From positions 1-64,000 of the forward strand of contig CAMZEC010000002.1 of NCBI GenBank assembly GCA_947305645.1: DNA of 64,000 nucleotides, given 5' to 3'. Below are positions 29,701-39,461 of the stretch, in pieces. The notes beneath the pieces were generated by a model. It ran no database searches and was not told the origin of the DNA. It saw only the letters and a list, made by a program, of their open reading frames with translations. Source of the DNA: an uncultured Bacteroidales bacterium. GTDB lineage: Bacteria; Bacteroidota; Bacteroidia; Bacteroidales; UBA932. The translations under genes and the position numbers were made by a program. Position 1 is the stretch's first letter, and each line of letters opens with the position of its first letter.

Positions 29701-32430
29701 ATGGAGTACGATTTCAAATCGATTGAGAGCAAATGGCAGGCCTACTGGGCTGCACACAAGACATTCAAGGCAGTAGAAGATGCATCCAAGCCCAAATACT
29801 ATGTGCTGGACATGTTTCCTTATCCTTCCGGCGCCGGCTTGCATGTGGGACACCCGCTCGGCTACATAGCCAGCGACATCTATTCCCGCTACAAGAGGCT
29901 CAAGGGCTTCAACGTGCTGCACCCTATGGGCTACGACGCTTTCGGTCTGCCTGCGGAGCAGTATGCTATACAGACCGGCCAGCATCCGGAAAAAACCACG
30001 TCGGAGAACATCGCCCGCTACCGTGGCCAGCTGGACCGCATCGGCTTCTCGTACGATTGGGACAGGGAGCTCCGTACCTGCGACCCTGCCTATTACAAGT
30101 GGACGCAGTGGGCTTTCCTGAAAATGTTCGATAGCTGGTACGACCCTGCAGCCGGCAAGGCACGCCCTGTTTCCGAGCTCGTCGCCCGCATCGAAAAGGA
30201 GGGGTACGAAGACGTGACGCCGGAGGTATGGGCGACCGCGTCTGATAAAGAGAAGTCCGATATCCTCATGCGTTATCGTATTGCATATCAGGGAGAGACG
30301 TCCGTCAACTGGTGCGAGGGCCTGGGGACCGTTCTGGCGAACGACGAGGTCAAGGACGGCCTTTCCGTGCGCGGCGGCTTCCCCGTGGAGCAGAAGAAAA
30401 TGACACAGTGGCAGCTGCGCGTGTCTGCTTATGCCGAGAGACTGCTGGAGTCGCTCGACCGCCTGGACTGGAGCGACTCGCTCAAAGAGATGCAGCGCAA
30501 CTGGATCGGCCGTTCGGACGGCACCGAGGTGGTCTTCGAGACCATCTGTGACGGCCGTCGCAAGCCGGTGACCATCTTCACCACTCGCGTGGACACCATT
30601 TTCGGCGTCACCTTCATGGTGCTGGCACCCGAGAGCGAACTGGTAGACGAGCTCGCTTCCGCCGATCGCAAGCAAGCGGTTGCCGAATATATAAAGGAGG
30701 TCAAGAAGAAGACCGAACGCGAGCGTATCGCCGAGACCAGGAGCGTTACGGGCGTGTTCGCGGGGTCCTACGGCATCAATCCGCTTACCGGGGAGCAGAT
30801 TCCTATTTGGATTTCCGAGTACGTGCTGGCGGGATACGGCACCGGCGCCATTATGGCAGTGCCTGCCCACGACAGCCGCGACTACGCGTTCGCACGCAAG
30901 TTCGAGCTGCCCATCGTGCCCATTATCGAGGGCTGCGACGTCAGCGAAGAGTCCTTCGACGCCAAGGAGGGCAAGATGTGCAACTCCGGATTCCTCAACG
31001 GAATGGACGTCAAGCAGGCAATAGAGGCTGCCAAGGATTACGTTGAAGAGAAAGGACTCGGCCGCCGCAAGACGAATTACCGTCTGCGCGACGCCATTTT
31101 CTCACGCCAGCGCTACTGGGGCGAGCCGTTCCCCATTTACTACAAGGACGGCATCCCGTGCCCCGTGTCCGAAGAAGACCTGCCGCTCACGCTCCCGGAG
31201 ATCAGCTCCTACAAGCCTACGGGAGAGGCTCCGCTCGCACGCGCGAAAGACTGGAAGTACAAGGGAGATCCTCTGGAAACGTCCACCATGCCCGGCTTTG
31301 CCGGATCGAGCGCCTACTATCTGCGCTATATGGATCCCCAGAATGACAACGCGCTCGTTTCGCGCGAGGCGGACGAATACTGGCGCTCCGTCGACCTTTA
31401 TGTCGGCGGCACCGAGCATGCCACGGGCCACCTTATCTACTCCCGTTTCTGGAACAAGTTCCTGTTCGACCTCGGCTATGTGTGTGAGGACGAGCCTTTC
31501 CGCAAGCTGGTGAACCAGGGAATGATTCAGGGCCGTTCCAACTTTGTTTACCGTATAGTGGGCACCAACACCTTTGTTTCCGAGGGCCTGCGCAAAGACT
31601 ACGAGACAACGGAGATTCATGTGGACGTGAACATAGTGTACAACGACAAGCTGGATCTGGATGCATTCCGTGCCTGGCGGCCTGAATTCGCTGATGCTGA
31701 ATTCATACTCGAAGACGGAGAGTACCGCTGCGGCTGGGCAATTGAGAAAATGAGCAAGTCTATGTACAACGTGGTGAATCCGGATCTTGTCTGCGACACT
31801 TACGGAGCCGACACCCTGAGGCTTTACGAGATGTTCCTCGGTCCTGTGGAGCAGAGCAAGCCGTGGGATACCAAGGGAATAGACGGTGTAAACCGCTTCC
31901 TGAAGAAATTCTGGCGCCTGTTCTACAACAAGAGCGAATGGCTGGTTTCTGACGAGAAAGCTACTCCTGAGGAACTCAAGGTTCTGCACAAGCTTATAGG
32001 CAAGGAGCAGGAAGATATAGAGAACTTCTCATACAATACCACCATCAGCGCATTCATGATTGCGGTAAATGATCTTACCGCACTGAAATGCAGCAAGAGA
32101 GAGGTACTCGAGCCGCTCGTGGTACTGCTTTGTCCTTTTGCCCCTCATATTACGGAAGAGCTCTGGGAGCGCCTCGGCCACGAGGGCTCGGTGGCTTATG
32201 CCTCCTTCCCCGAGTTTATCCCCGCCCTCGCCGCGGAAGATAACGTCACCTATCCGGTCCAGTTCAACGGCAAGATGCGCTTTACGGTAGATCTGCCCCG
32301 CAGCGCGTCGCCTGCAGAGGTCGAGGCGGCCGTCCGTGCCAATGATTCTACGTCTAAGTATGTGGGTGAGCAGCAGATTGTTAAGGTTATAGTTGTTCCA
32401 GGCAGGATTGTGAACATAGTAGTGAAATGA
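29701..32430 (+). CDS. leuS: Leucyl-tRNA synthetase
   Basis: [15 protein letters not shown] (HIGH); [13 protein letters not shown] (KMSKS). Confidence 0.96.
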
Positions 32431-33350
32431 AAAACAAAGTAGCAAGGCTTATCTGGGAGTATCTCGCCCTTACGGTGGCGTGCTTCATTTTCGCTTTTGC
32501 ATGGGAGAGCCTCATGATACCCAACGGTATGTCCGCCGGCGGTATGATGGGTCTTTGTACCGTTGTCCAGTATGCGACCGCCGGCCTGATTCCTGCCCAG
32601 TATTCCTATATTGCAATCAACGCGATATTGATTATCATTGCAGTATTTGCGATGGGTATAGGCTTCGGATTCAAGACAATTTACTGTATTGTCCTTTCTA
32701 CCGTCGCTATGGAGCTGCTGGCCGATTTTTCTGGTCTGCACAGCGTTCCCGGACAGTTCTTCTATGTGAAGGAGACTATACTTATTCCCGTACTTGCAGG
32801 AGCTGCTGAAGCGGTTGGAATAGGCATCGTGCTGCGTTACGGCGGCAGTACCGGAGGTACCGATATCATCGCTCTGATGATTAACAAGTATTGGCCCGTG
32901 GCCCTCAGTTCCGCCTTCCTCATTTCTGATCTGGTGGTTATCTCCCTGCTCCTGTTCCTTCCGGACAAGTCTTTTTCCGACGCTTGCTACGGTTTGGTTG
33001 AAGTGGTTACTTTTTCCCTGATTATCGATATGGTGGTAGGAGGAAAGAAGTCTTCCTACCAGCTGCTGGTGTTTTCCAACAAGCATAAGGAAATTGCTGA
33101 CTATATCACCGACGTCATGTCCCGCGGCGTGACCGTGTTGAATGCACAGGGCTGGTACACCAAGCAGCAGAAGGATGTTCTCCTTATCATCATCAATCAG
33201 AAAGAATTCCCTCAATTGTCGAAGGTAATCAAAGATATAGATCCCAGGGCGTTCATGTCCGTGTCGCCTACAAGTAACGTATATGGAGAAGGCTTTGACG
33301 AGATCAAGGCCGGAATAAGATCAAAAAAGAAGAAAGATGCCGCTCAGTAA
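32427..33350 (+). CDS. YitT family membrane protein
   Basis: Multi-[19 protein letters not shown]-terminal DUF2179-like domain; 4-nt overlap with leuS. Confidence 0.85.
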
Positions 33351-34302
33351 GAAATCCGCTTTTGTTTTTGTAAAGGAGTATGCCCTCATTACCCTGGGCA
33401 TCTTACTCTACGTGACCGGGTGGAACCTGTTCCTTATTCCCAATAACCTCGTTGGCGGGGGAGTATCCGGTGTGGCCGCAATCATTCAGTATGCAACCAA
33501 AGGCTTCATAAAGATTGGTACCACTTATTTTGTAGTTAATGCAGTTCTGCTGGTGATTGCCTTGTTCATCCTGGGCAAGGGATTCGGCGGCAAGACTGTA
33601 TTCGCTGTAATAATCGCCTCCGTCGGCCTGAATGCCATGCAGGGCCTCATCCCGGCGGAAATTACCCAGGCCCTCGCCATCGACAACGGAAAGCTTATGA
33701 GCACAATCATGGGCGGTATACTCGTAGGCGTCGGTATAGGAATGACAATGTCTCAGGGAGGCAGTACCGGGGGAACAGACATTATAGCGCTCATTGTCAA
33801 CAAGTACCGTAATGTATCTCCCGGCCGGATGATACTCTGGATGGATGTGGTTATTATCCTGTCGTCCATGCTGGTGCCTTCCTATTCCTCCGAGGGAGAT
33901 CTTCTGCCCTGGACTGAGAAAGTCACCACCGTGGTGTACGGTTTCATTCTGGTGGTGGTAAACAGCACCGTGCTGGACCTTTATCTTTCAGGTTCCCGTC
34001 AGTCCGTTCAGGTTTTCATCCTGTCACAGAAGTACCCGGAGATTGCCGATATGATTACCCGTGACCTTCACAGGGGCGTTACGGTGCTGGACGGAAAGGG
34101 CTGGTACACCAAGCATGACACAGAGGTCCTTATGGTGCTTACCAGGAAGTCGGATCTTAGTATGTTACTTCGTATGGTAAAGAGCGTGGATTCTAATGCA
34201 TTCCTCTCAGTCTCTTCTGTAACAGGCGTTTACGGTAAGGGATTCGACCAGATAAAAGAGAAGGTCAAAGGGGCAAAAGAAAAAGTTTCGAAAGAATCAT
34301 AA
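33337..34302 (+). CDS. YitT family membrane protein (tandem paralog)
   Basis: [23 protein letters not shown]; 14-nt overlap with upstream paralog. Confidence 0.85.
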   Translation: MPLSKKSAFVFVKEYALITLGILLYVTGWNLFLIPNNLVGGGVSGVAAIIQYATKGFIKIGTTYFVVNAVLLVIALFILGKGFGGKTVFAVIIASVGLNAMQGLIPAEITQALAIDNGKLMSTIMGGILVGVGIGMTMSQGGSTGGTDIIALIVNKYRNVSPGRMILWMDVVIILSSMLVPSYSSEGDLLPWTEKVTTVVYGFILVVVNSTVLDLYLSGSRQSVQVFILSQKYPEIADMITRDLHRGVTVLDGKGWYTKHDTEVLMVLTRKSDLSMLLRMVKSVDSNAFLSVSSVTGVYGKGFDQIKEKVKGAKEKVSKES

Positions 34303-34368
34303 ACCCTGAAAAAAACCTCTTTCAGGACCCCTTCGTTGTCGGAGTCGATATTTATTTTTGACTCCGTT

Positions 34369-35331
34369 ATGAAAATAAAAATCAGATCCCACAAACTTTT
34401 GCGGCTAAGTGCATTATTGCTTATGCCGCTGCTTTCATTGTATGATTTCTTATCGGCCGGGGCACTTGCCCCGGCGGTGCTGTGCCTGAATCTGTGGTGT
34501 TCTCTTCAGATTTTGATTCTCTATCCTTTGCCTCACGAGCCCGTGCATCCCTCAGTTACCGCGACTTTGGTTTCGATTTCCATGTGCGTATTATTTAAGT
34601 TGTTAGGGTTCCCGCCCTGGGCTTTCGTAATTGGAGGCACAACGCTGGCTTTCAGTTTCTCGCTCCACAGGGGCGTGTGCCGATTTGCCGATGTCCCGCC
34701 TTTGTTCATGGTTTCCACGGTATGGGCGGGAGTTCTGGATTATCTCAGTCTGTTGCATATGACTTTTTTCATAGTAACCGGCGTCTGGCTGTGCGTCCTG
34801 GTATCGTGGCGGGCTATGGCGTGGTCTCTGCTTTTCACGCTGGCCGTTTTCTTCGGCATGCAATATTATCGCATCTACACTCGCCGCACCTTGTTTCTGG
34901 GGAGAAGGAAGGAGGCTCTTATCCGTCAGGGGCAGAAGGGGTCAGGCTACAAATTGCCAATCCAATATGTAGATTCCGACAGCCGTTCGGCCGTCCTATT
35001 CAATGACGTTGTAAAGATAATGGAAGTAAAGAAGCCTTATTTGCAGGAAGACTTCAACCTTGACGACCTATCCCGTATGACCAGGACAAACCGTCTGTAC
35101 CTTTCCAAGGCCATAAATTTCCACTCGGGACGCAACTTTAACCAGCTGGTTAATTATTACAGGGTAAAATATGCCATGGAACTCATAAAGAAGGATTCCG
35201 GGTTGAAAATGGGAGAAGTGGCGGTCATGTGCGGCTTCCATACCACCGTATCGTTCAATATGGCCTTCAAACTCAACGAGCATACCACGCCCAGCGAGTA
35301 TGCCCGTAGCTTGAGAACTATAAGCAGATGA
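34369..35331 (+). CDS. Membrane-anchored AraC-family HTH regulator
   Basis: N-terminal TM helices; C-terminal NLDDLSRMTRTNRLYLSKAINFHSGRNFNQLVNYYRVKYAMELI...GFHTTVSFNMAFK; TATTTTTG at 34353-34360 supports ATG at 34369. Confidence 0.8.
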   Translation: MKIKIRSHKLLRLSALLLMPLLSLYDFLSAGALAPAVLCLNLWCSLQILILYPLPHEPVHPSVTATLVSISMCVLFKLLGFPPWAFVIGGTTLAFSFSLHRGVCRFADVPPLFMVSTVWAGVLDYLSLLHMTFFIVTGVWLCVLVSWRAMAWSLLFTLAVFFGMQYYRIYTRRTLFLGRRKEALIRQGQKGSGYKLPIQYVDSDSRSAVLFNDVVKIMEVKKPYLQEDFNLDDLSRMTRTNRLYLSKAINFHSGRNFNQLVNYYRVKYAMELIKKDSGLKMGEVAVMCGFHTTVSFNMAFKLNEHTTPSEYARSLRTISR

Positions 35332-36182
35332 AATTCTTTTTATTGTCAACAGATCATCTTCAAACTAAACTATGGTTTGGAGATGATGCAGATTATGCTG
35401 TAGCTATGAACTATGTGGCAATTACGGCATACAGATATAGCGTGAATGTAGTTGCCTTCATCTTAATGTCAAACCACGTTCACTTCATTTTGGAATGCGA
35501 AAAAGAAACAGCTGCCGACTTTGTTTCTTTCTTTAAGGAGATGTACGGGCTGTATCGTCGAAAACGCTACGGTGACACTCAATATTTGCGTGGACTCTTG
35601 GTGGATATTCAAAATGTACCACTGGAAAATGAATCGATGGAACGAGCAATAGCATATGTTCAGTCAAATAGCGTAGCTGCGCGTCTTTGTACACATCCGT
35701 CAGGGTATCCATGGGGTACCGGGAATGTATTCTTTGATTCGACCTTTTATGAAGTACATCCGGTAGGATCGCTTTCCGCAAGAAAAAGAGCAAGTATCAT
35801 GCACAGTAAGCTTCCGGTTAATCCCGGCTGGTCTTTGGGGCCTGGCGGTTTCATTTTGCCTAAGTGCTATGTTACCACTAGTTTTGTAGAAGGGTTGTTC
35901 AGAACGCCTTCCAGATATCAGTACTTTTTGGATAACTCTTCTAAAGTACGAAAGACTCGAGAGCAAGTGAGCCCGTCCTTTTCAGATCAATTGGTGTTAA
36001 CGGCGTCGCTTAACTTATGCCATTCATTGTTTCGAGCAAATAGTATTGATGATCTTTCTCCTTCTCAAACGGCTGAATTGGTAAAACAACTAAAGCGAAG
36101 ATTCTCTTCTGACGCTGCGCAAATAAGCAGGACTACCGGTGTGGCATATTCAGAAGCCCTTCGGATTCTTGAAAGCATATAA
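35328..36182 (+). mobile_element. REP-associated tyrosine transposase-like (RAYT, Y1/HUH family) CDS
   Basis: AFILMSNHVHFILE (HUH as HVH) and AIAYVQSNSVAARLCTHPSGYPWGTG matching the Y1_Tnp pattern YI..NPv.a.lv..p.dYpwSS; ATGA overlap with AraC gene. Confidence 0.82.
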
Positions 36183-36183
36183 T

Positions 36184-36270
36184 GATTGCGCCTACTCTCC
36201 TTTTTCTTTCAGGGGGTAGGCGCAATATCGCTTGTTTTTGATTCTACCCTCAATCCAAATAGGGAGGGTA
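36184..36270. repeat. REP/BIME-like element copy A (hairpin 1 plus hairpin 2)
   Basis: Hairpin 1 attgcgcctac/gtaggcgcaat (36185-36195/36216-36226); hairpin 2 taccctc/gagggta (36245-36251/36264-36270); 36184-36232 identical to 39222-39270. Confidence 0.88.
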
Positions 36271-36284
36271 AGGGCGTTTGAGGA

Positions 36285-36980
36285 CTAAAGCGGCCAGGAC
36301 GCAGGCGGTGGAGCTATCACGTGTAAATCATCGTGTTTTACCGGATGCTCCAGGTGAATCTCGTGGGCGTGCAGGCAAATACTGCCGTCCGGGTTGGATC
36401 GTGGAGCGCCGTACTTAAGGTCGCCTTTTATGGGACAGCCGATGTGCCCGAGCTGGCAGCGTATCTGGTGGTGGCGTCCTGTCAGCAGTTCCACCTCTAC
36501 CAGCTGGTACCGCTCCGTGCTTTTAAGCCACTTATAGTTCAGTTTGGCCAGTTTGGCGCCCGGGCGCTCTGTGGTAATATAGGATTTGTTCTTGGGCTCG
36601 TTCTTGATGAGCCAGTCTTCCAGGTGCCCCTCTGCGGGCTCAGGTTTGCTGCAGCAAAGGGCCCAATAGGTCTTGTGCGCTCCGCCTTCCTTAAAGATAA
36701 CGCCCAGGCGGCCCAGAGCCTTACTGGTCTTTGCCAGCACACAAATGCCGCTGACGGGACGGTCCAGTCGGTGAGGTATGCCCAGGAATACCTGACCCGG
36801 TTTGTCGTCGCGCTGGGCGATGAAAGCCTTGTAGGCTTCTGCCAGACACTCGTCTCCGGTTTTGTCACCCTGTGTGATCTCTCCGGGCAACTTGTTGACA
36901 ATCAGCAAGTGATTGTCCTCATAAAGGATACGGTTTTGCAGATTATGGTACTCCGCTTCTGTCAGCTTTCTGTAAATCAT
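36285..36980 (-). CDS. RluA-family pseudouridine synthase
   Basis: YEDNHLLIVNKLPGEITQG; GIPHRLDRPVSGICVLAKT; TGRHHQIRCQLGHIGCPIKGD. Confidence 0.92.
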   Translation of the reverse strand: MIYRKLTEAEYHNLQNRILYEDNHLLIVNKLPGEITQGDKTGDECLAEAYKAFIAQRDDKPGQVFLGIPHRLDRPVSGICVLAKTSKALGRLGVIFKEGGAHKTYWALCCSKPEPAEGHLEDWLIKNEPKNKSYITTERPGAKLAKLNYKWLKSTERYQLVEVELLTGRHHQIRCQLGHIGCPIKGDLKYGAPRSNPDGSICLHAHEIHLEHPVKHDDLHVIAPPPASWPL

Positions 36981-37006
36981 AATAATGCAAATATACTACT
37001 TTTATT

Positions 37007-37125
37007 AATTCCGGCGCCTGTACTTGGGCGGAGAGCAATCCGGCTACGTCCATTCTCGCGGCTTCGCCGCTGCGGCTGAGTAACGCCGGACCGCTCTCTG
37101 CCACAAATTAATCGGCGCCGGAATT
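37007..37125. repeat. Long hairpin element in the divergent region upstream of dnaK
   Basis: aattccggcgcc (37007-37018) / ggcgccggaatt (37114-37125) perfect 12 bp; inner arms 37028-37045/37085-37102 (15/18). Confidence 0.85.
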
Positions 37126-37126
37126 C

Positions 37127-37139
37127 TGACAATTTGTCA
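37127..37139. promoter_or_regulatory. Palindrome TGACAA-T-TTGTCA upstream of dnaK, candidate operator
   Basis: Perfect 6-bp arms with 1-nt centre, about 93 nt before the dnaK start. Confidence 0.4.
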
Positions 37140-37231
37140 CAAAACGGACAATGGCAAAAGATTTGATGATTGAAGATGTGGACCGCAAGAGGTCCGGAAC
37201 AATTGAAGTAAAACAAAAAAGAATTATAGAT

Positions 37232-39169
37232 ATGGGAAAAATTATCGGAATCGATCTCGGCACCACCAATTCGTGCGTAGCCGTTATGGAAGGCAACCAG
37301 CCTACTGTTATCATCAATGACGAAGGCGCCCGCACCACGCCGTCCGTCGTTGCATTCACAGACAATGGCGAGCGTAAGGTCGGATCTCCTGCAAAGCGTC
37401 AGGCGATCACCAACCCTGGCAACACCATTTTCTCCATCAAGCGTTTCATGGGTGAAACCTACGACCAGGTGAGCAAGGAAGTCGCACGCGTTCCTTATAA
37501 AGTTAACCGTGGCGACAACAACACTCCCCGTGTAGATATCAACGGTCGTCTTTACAGTCCTCAGGAAATCTCCGCAATCATTCTCCAGAAGATGAAGAAG
37601 ACCGCAGAAGATTATCTCCGTCAACCTGTCACCGAGGCGGTTATCACCGTCCCCGCTTACTTCTCCGACAGCCAGCGTCAGGCCACCAAGGAGGCAGGCA
37701 AGATCGCCGGTCTGGATGTGAAACGTATCATCAACGAGCCTACCGCAGCCGCTCTTGCCTACGGTCTGGACAAGAAGAACAAGAACATGAAGGTCGCCGT
37801 CTATGACCTTGGCGGCGGTACTTTCGATATCTCCATCCTGGAACTCGGCGACGGCGTTTTTGAGGTCCGTTCCACCAACGGTGACACCCACCTCGGCGGC
37901 GACGACTTCGACCAGGCAGTAATCGACTGGCTTGCCGGCGAGTTCGCATCCGAGAACGGCGGCATGGACCTGAAGAAAGATCCTATGGCCCTCCAGCGTC
38001 TTAAGGAAGCTGCCGAGAAGGCGAAGATCGAACTTTCCAACGCCACCAGCGCAGAGATCAACCTGCCGTACATCACCGCAGTCGACGGCATGCCCAAGCA
38101 CCTGGTGAAGACCCTTACCCGTGCCAAGTTCGAGGCCCTTTGCGACGACCTCTTCCGCCGCAGCATCGAGCCTTGCCGCAAGGCCCTCGAGGATGCCAAA
38201 CTGAGCGCATCCCAGATAGACGAAGTCCTGCTCGTGGGCGGTTCTACCCGTATCCCCAAGGTGCAGGAGATGGTGAAGGAATTCTTCGGCAAGGAGCCCA
38301 ACAAGAGCGTCAACCCCGACGAGGTCGTGGCTATCGGCGCTGCTATCCAGGGCGGTGTTCTCACCGGCGACGTGAAGGACGTACTGCTGCTCGACGTTAC
38401 ACCTCTGAGCCTCGGTATCGAGACCCTCGGCGGAGTGATGACCAAGCTCATCGAGTCCAACACCACCATCCCCGCCAAGAAGAGCCAGGTATTCAGCACT
38501 GCGGCCGACAACCAGCCGAGCGTTGAAATCCGCGTGCTCCAAGGCGAGCGCCCCATGGCAAAGGACAACAAGCAGATCGGAGTGTTCCATCTGGACGGCA
38601 TAGCCCCCGCACCCCGCGGCATACCTCAGATCGAAGTAAGCTTCGACATCGACGCCAACGGCATCCTGAGCGTCTCCGCGAAGGATAAGGCTACCGGCAA
38701 GGAGCAGAGTATCCGTATCGAGGCTTCAAGCGGCCTGAGCGACGCCGAAATCCAGCGCATGCGCGATGAAGCCAAGGCCAACGAAGAAGCAGACAAGGCC
38801 GAGAAGGAGCGTGTAGACAAGATCAACAATGCCGACGCCATGGTGTTCCAGACAGAGAAGAACCTCAAGGAATATGGCGACAAGATTCCTTCCGACAAGA
38901 AGAACGCCATCGAGAACGCGTGTGCAGAGCTTAAGAAGGCTGTCGAGGCCAAGGACCTCAGTGCCATCGAGCGTTACAACTCCGAACTGGAAGCCGCATG
39001 GCACGCTGCATCCGAGGATATGGCCAAGGCCGCACAGGGCGGTGCCCAGGGTCCTCAGGACGGAGCCGGATTCAACCCCGGAAACGGCGGCTTCGGCGGC
39101 CAGCAGGGCGGTCCCCAGTCCGGACCCGGTCCGGACTACGGCAACAACAATCAGCCGGATGAGCAATAA
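37232..39169 (+). CDS. dnaK: Chaperone DnaK (Hsp70)
   Basis: [33 protein letters not shown]; start trimmed from the ORF-track start at 37151. Confidence 0.96.
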
Positions 39170-39173
39170 AACC

Positions 39174-39270
39174 GATTCTACCCTCCCAATTTGGATTGAG
39201 GGTAGAATCAAAAAATAGCAAGATTGCGCCTACTCTCCTTTTTCTTTCAGGGGGTAGGCGCAATATCGCT
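39174..39270. repeat. REP/BIME-like element copy B (hairpin 2 plus hairpin 1)
   Basis: Hairpin 2 gattctaccctc/gagggtagaatc (39174-39185/39198-39209, perfect 12 bp); hairpin 1 39223-39233/39254-39264; 49 bp identical to copy A. Confidence 0.88.
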
Positions 39271-39455
39271 CAGGCTCTTCATCATCTTTTCGGCCGCCGC
39301 CTTCACCTTTTCTGTGGCTTTCCTGTTGCGGAGATAGTAATTCACTTTTCCATCGGGTCTATGGATTCGTCGTATACTTTGACTTTTCCTGTGCCTTAAC
39401 GGCAACAAAAAGAGATGTGAACAAGGCGGCAATGGCTAATATCTTTCTTATATTA
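39245..39455 (-). pseudogene. Frameshifted remnant of a small secreted protein
   Basis: Signal-peptide-like (I)RKILAIAALFTSLFVAVKAQEK, then KVKVYDESIDPMEK* in a second frame, then DGKVNYYLRNRKATEKVKAAAEKMMKSLSDIAPTP* in a third; no ATG start. Confidence 0.5.
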
Positions 39456-39461
39456 AAATAG

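Follow-up and report, generated by a model that had tools for sequence, protein, structure and literature searches.

Class 2 TnpA-Y1 proteins are defined by the motif Y---NP, and W[QE] is listed for those subclasses that bear REPs (Quentin et al. 2018, PMC6006769). An in vitro study dealt with three REPtrons, all of them with GTAG-bearing REPs (PMC8266576). Two questions, how REPs are recognised and spread by RAYTs and what makes hosts retain these, are touched by a group of proteins with one gene in the window, by which we mean the whole analyzed stretch of 64,000 nucleotides (contig CAMZEC010000002.1 from an uncultured, rumen-type Bacteroidales bacterium). The initial annotation, made from the letters alone, had proposed a RAYT/REP module in a Bacteroidota chromosome. 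This proposal is supported by the fold of the protein, by recurring hairpins and by hairpin doublets at related loci. We are confident that the module is a REPtron, i.e. a HUH/Y1 transposase that is not an insertion sequence (RAYT), present in one copy per type, together with its own cognate REP doublets. By analogy with described systems, the gene probably copies its hairpin repeats around the genome. The module apparently belongs to a RAYT branch that is not yet described; a literature search, with most subscription journals outside its reach, retrieved no description of the group.

The RAYT-like gene (35328-36182, forward strand) codes for a protein of 284 aa with the catalytic residues H50-V-H52 and Y110 and a helical C-terminal domain (approximately residues 184-282), in which a Pfam search gave no HTH match. 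The open reading frame and its translation agree with the initial annotation, as do the motifs SNHVHFILE (residues 48-56), YVQSNSV (110-116) and PSGYPW (124-129). From H52 to Y110 there are 58 residues, without an insertion. A match to the Pfam profile Y1_Tnp, which had been suggested as a check, is present (residues 28-84) but weak, with 20.7 bits against a curated cut-off of 23. A distant paralogue on contig 7 of the same genome is over this cut-off with 24 bits. Two other paralogues, each with a doublet of its own, are on contigs 1 and 28. The genome has five deeper Y1-like paralogues (C7:47990, C6:28967, C59:9643, C39:18862 and C12:12137), which are ~20-27% identical to the window protein; the one on C12 (L078) has an altered HUH motif, and two deeper paralogues (L074 and L076) have flanking repeats of their own, which are different ones. 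The NCBIfam model REP_Tyr_transpos covers residues 4-129 of the window protein (E 2.1e-8), with 34 bits, which is below the 80-bit cut-off. Because proteins of this group score under the curated cut-offs, standard profiles tend to miss the REPtrons of rumen Bacteroidales. An AlphaFold2 model with 35 homologues as input is confident throughout (pLDDT 92.9, pTM 0.89). Its top fold match in the PDB is 4er8 (E. coli RAYT/TnpA_REP with a REP hairpin, E 4.4e-4), and TnpA from IS608 and ISDra2 rank close after it. H50, H52, Y110 and N114 are invariant among the 35 aligned homologues. The gene product is a Y1-HUH protein. It has the HUH motif and the single catalytic Tyr in a Y1 fold that characterize a RAYT in the broad sense, an identity that is clear by fold (4er8) and weak by profile.

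Two nucleotides after the stop codon (TAA, 36180-36182) begins a hairpin (36185-36226, forward strand) with a perfect 11-bp stem (36185-36195/36216-36226), which is 100% complementary, as originally described. The second hairpin was also found as described (36245-36270, with the 7-bp stem TACCCTC/GAGGGTA). It belongs to an element (36240-36270, forward strand) that is inverted relative to the first and degenerate in its outer part, so that the 7-bp stem (36245-36251/36264-36270) is what remains. The first half resembles the reverse complement of the second (GCGCCTACTCTCC...GGGGGTAG compared to CGCCCTTACCCTCC...GAGGGTAG); thus, the unit is an inverted doublet, as in REPINs and BIMEs. The hairpins are REP-like, as had been claimed, but instead of being two separate REPs they make up a single inverted doublet, with one half each. 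The rest of the genome (a draft of 2.25 Mb in 94 contigs, ~79% complete) was searched with BLAST for both hairpins, and one further locus was retrieved (39174-39264), 3 kb away and directly after dnaK. There, half 2 (39174-39209, reverse strand) begins 4 nt past the dnaK stop codon and has a perfect 12-bp stem (GATTCTACCCTC/GAGGGTAGAATC). Half 1 (39223-39264, forward strand) lies within a 49-nt match with 100% identity to the RAYT-linked copy (39222-39270, E 2.6e-19), and a further match covers 55 nt at 91% (E 9e-16). Because these matches recur at 39179-39270, a chance origin of the hairpins is excluded. The orientation of the half 1 core relative to half 2 is flipped between the RAYT-linked and the dnaK copy. 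Both doublets are more stably folded than dinucleotide shuffles, the RAYT-linked one with a z of -4.4 and the dnaK copy with a z of -7.5. A search of Rfam gave no match at E up to 0.5. A search of the genome with short stem patterns gave matches with 2-3 mismatches about as frequently as the reversed-pattern control, so only BLAST copies were counted. The window RAYT has two REP loci only in the ~79% complete draft. The RAYT reading of the initial annotation stands, with the reservations that this low copy number is unlike that of the high-copy enterobacterial REPs and that the protein motifs fit no published TnpA-Y1 subclass.

The ATG of the RAYT gene overlaps the stop codon of an araC-type regulator gene (ATGA). 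This gene (34336-35331, forward strand; HTH_18, E 2.9e-13) is the conserved upstream neighbour that marks the insertion site, with synteny in relatives with and without the RAYT. Upstream of it are two adjoining YitT-family genes (32427-34302; YitT_membrane and DUF2179), the second of which is kept beside araC in several relatives. The gene for a RluA-type pseudouridine synthase (36285-36980, reverse strand) is convergent with the RAYT gene. The gene order araC(+)-rluA(-)-dnaK(+) recurs in the genus, and in most relatives araC and rluA adjoin directly, with no RAYT between them. A RAYT at this position is common to the window and to the related locus L080, where the gene has a doublet on each side. 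In the window the upstream doublet is gone, and because of this loss the RAYT gene now overlaps araC. At the site of the second doublet of the window, the genome of L080 carries an intact thioredoxin-like gene together with a hairpin that resembles a terminator. With a local deletion, this arrangement represents a natural empty site of the dnaK copy. The window contains a shortened, frame-broken thioredoxin-like remnant (~39270-39460, reverse strand), and the second doublet is at its broken 3' end. Relative to L264, a contig of the relative L080, the rluA-dnaK-trx block (36291-39460) is inverted, and ~15 kb around it are collinear at ~80% identity. One breakpoint of this inversion is at the REP after the RAYT. 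A REP-mediated inversion was considered but is not proposed, because the other breakpoint is beyond the thioredoxin-like remnant and the genome of the relative lacks further REP copies.

In the window, the gene overlaps the araC stop codon and no longer has an upstream REP; there is one other REP copy only, and hairpin 2 is degenerate. These features favour a domesticated or decaying RAYT, in which gene and repeats are old remnants, the protein has a host role (e.g. with the overlapping araC) and the REPs are no longer moved. That published RAYTs are considered domesticated (PMC8049555, PMC8266576) also counts for this reading. However, the open reading frame is intact with conserved catalytic residues, the dnaK copy preserves 100% identity over 49 nt in half 1, and at a distance of 4 kb from a paralogue of the same genome there is a copy of its REP with 99% identity. 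We consider domestication unlikely, although it keeps some weight. For the window copy, it is compatible with the REPtron explanation for the family as a whole.

That the module is a REPtron, which is the reading we prefer, was examined at related RAYT loci, and equivalent hairpin doublets, as called for initially, are present on their flanks. Homologues occur in 87 of the 101 genomes of the window's genus, and 80 further homologous loci were taken from Bacteroidales MAGs, mostly ruminant. A strong hairpin (score at least 10) is found within 150 nt 3' of the stop codon for 61 of 112 homologous genes, compared to 3 of 111 control stretches. Hairpin doublets are present at 83 of 112 loci (some of the counted pairs being due to chance), with halves that resemble each other's reverse complement, so that two inverted REPs form one unit as in REPINs and BIMEs. 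In 35 of 98 non-redundant homologues, the gene lies between direct repeats with a length of 60 nt or more (median 94 nt, 90% identity). These repeats, which were picked blind to hairpins, have a median fold z of -4.7 (controls: -0.1). Doublets also flank homologues from a search across the host family (L268, L270). A minority of homologues (e.g. L051, L053 and L116) have flanking repeats without strong hairpins, which counts against the REPtron explanation. At the outer foot of the REP halves, GTGC and AGTG are commonest (GTGC in 38 of 98 halves); the foot of the window doublet deviates from this family consensus. GTAG and GTGG, which make up the GT[AG]G of canonical class 2, are not among the common 4-mers at the foot. 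GTCC/GGAC beside the loop is recurrent, as is a spacer of ~18 nt, often with TTTT and GGC/GCC. The stem sequences vary between RAYT types, too much for one common alignment.

For 15 RAYTs, the doublets served as queries against the genome of their own RAYT and against those of the other RAYTs. Beyond the flanking pair, their own genomes contain between none and ~10 dispersed copies; genome G011 has more, with tandem arrays. At L070 and on three contigs of G011 (C1, C19 and C44), a REP unit of ~52 nt forms head-to-tail arrays of up to ~ten copies, away from the RAYT. Foreign doublets are almost absent from other genomes, and the eight that were tested in the window's genome gave zero matches. 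Each RAYT has its own REP type and forms a cognate pair with it, and the palindromes beside the gene occur also elsewhere in the genome, as is typical for RAYTs. REP similarity tracks protein identity (Mantel test with 69 genes, Spearman rho 0.26, 0 of 1000 permutations). Among the pairs with proteins that are 70-85% identical, 75% have REPs of clear similarity, compared to at most 1.4% of the pairs below 60%. The REP nearest to that of the window is the one of L080, which also has the nearest protein (66% identity). Part of this co-divergence may reflect nothing more than the descent of whole loci from a common ancestor. Among nine dispersed copies with readable flanks, six are clear of ORFs according to a mechanical ORF list, and three (L176, L180 and L181) overlap ORFs of 82-242 codons, the reality of which is doubtful. 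Several of the six are wedged between genes that converge, with distances to the gene ends of 23/19, 22/4 and 24/4 nt. By hand count, 7 of 52 dispersed copies are at most 6 kb from their RAYT, where ~0.3 are expected if evenly spread. In an independent count, a further cognate copy lies at a distance of 0.4-3 kb for 17 of 72 genes, in part as an extension of a flanking array. On these modest numbers, local spreading of REP copies is likely.

RAYT paralogues within one genome are 45-62% identical in the sample and low in copy number. Because their identity does not exceed 62%, the gene does not multiply as an insertion sequence does. This makes it very unlikely that the module is an IS200/IS605-like element which transposes as a whole unit and has the flanking doublets as its two ends, even though many homologues have doublets on both gene sides, the catalytic core is the same and the gene is absent from the araC-rluA site in relatives. 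Repeats recur by themselves, without the gene, and are then up to 99% identical; each of the two ends is a direct copy of the other, and the sample contained no near-identical gene copies with ends at different sites of one genome. Also very unlikely is a role of the hairpins as ordinary intrinsic terminators or as stabilisers of mRNA 3' ends, with no relation to the activity of the gene: they do come after the stop codons of the RAYT gene and of dnaK, and the dnaK copy stands where the relative has its terminator-like hairpin, but no T-tract directly follows either stem, a terminator scan calls neither hairpin, equivalent doublets are also upstream of the gene, sequence-specific copies occur elsewhere and co-diverge with the RAYT, and control stretches lack doublets that are equally frequent and equally repeated. 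The doublets may act as terminators or 3' stabilisers secondarily.

For the mechanism of TnpA proteins, the structures of IS608 provide part of the basis. Together with IS608 biochemistry and with that of TnpA_REP (PMC8266576), they suggest how a REPtron with the features obtained by sequence comparison (fold, conserved catalytic residues, flanking doublets, dispersed copies, co-divergence and empty sites) would operate. The doublet would become single-stranded, e.g. on the lagging-strand template, and fold into two hairpins. The protein would recognise a hairpin and its foot, with (A)GTGC as the putative guide, and Y110 would nick the foot, with a metal held by H50 and H52. The single strand, excised or copied, would then be joined to a new site, in most cases an intergenic 3' end and in many cases no more than a few kb off. 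RAYT and REP diverge together, each lineage ending with a private repeat. The W/Q/E-H-R region, which reads GTAG in E. coli TnpA_REP, is not conserved in the window group; thus, the mode of recognition must differ.

With the profile of the family (E up to 1e-15), 198 genomes of the order yielded no match beyond the window's genus. Restriction to one genus was nevertheless rejected because a search across the host family (with E up to 1e-30 and with deeper paralogues counted) found the group in 50 of the 120 genomes, which represent 11 of the 26 genera. By profile, the group is restricted to a single family of the Bacteroidales, with no match outside this family in the 198 genomes. We tentatively propose, at slightly less than even odds, that this group is a separate TnpA-Y1/RAYT subclass of that family. 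It would read non-GTAG doublets, with an (A)GTGC-type foot and a GTCC/GGAC stem end by the loop, via a rewired recognition region and the C-terminal helical domain, and it would deposit copies preferentially within a few kb of its own gene, giving each host lineage private, co-evolving enzyme-repeat pairs. The group extends REPtrons to uncultured rumen Bacteroidales. It offers dozens of naturally diverged, clearly matched non-GTAG enzyme-repeat pairs, several per genome, and specificity determinants could be read from protein-repeat covariation and then tested by pair swaps.

In place of the class 2 motif Y---NP, the family has Y--MN[SCP]V, with P in 5 of 32 homologues and YVQSNSV in the window protein. 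Where W[QE] is expected upstream of the Tyr, the window protein has L87-R88 and no W. The window group shares with E. coli TnpA_REP/RAYT and its REPtrons (Bertels groups 2 and 3, Quentin subclasses 2.2 and 2.5) the HUH/Y1 core, cognate flanking palindromes, inverted REP pairs, one gene per type and the co-divergence of REP and RAYT. It differs from them by the missing GT[AG]G foot tag, by L87-R88 instead of W94/Q95, by a Y-motif without NP, by its length (~285 aa) with an extra helical C-terminal domain, and by the low REP copy number. With TnpA-Y1 subclass 2.6 (Bertels group 5; from Bacteroidetes, with atypical secondary structures; PMC6006769) it has in common the phylum and non-GTAG flanking palindromes with copies elsewhere in the genome, whereas the length of ~179 aa, WQ, YIH[QN]NP and the 21-aa insertion before beta 4 are all absent from it. 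The Bacteroidales RAYTs over the NCBIfam cut-off (NF047646-type) are mostly 185-200 aa long and subclass 2.6-like, and they align apart from the window group. Subclass 2.1/TIRYT also has long proteins with a C-terminal extension, but it keeps Y---NP, has an HTH C-terminal domain and no REPs, whereas the window group has REP doublets and mostly lacks Y---NP. TnpA from IS200/IS605 (subclass 1.1) shares the catalytic core, with a weak profile match and a fold match (2xma, 2vhg). It has 152 aa compared to ~285, and the window group has no Y---Q motif, is not a near-identical multicopy unit and has flanks that are direct copies of each other. The motifs of all published class 2 TnpA-Y1 subclasses are missing from the proteins of the window group; this looks like a new branch of a known enzyme-repeat partnership (RAYT/REP).
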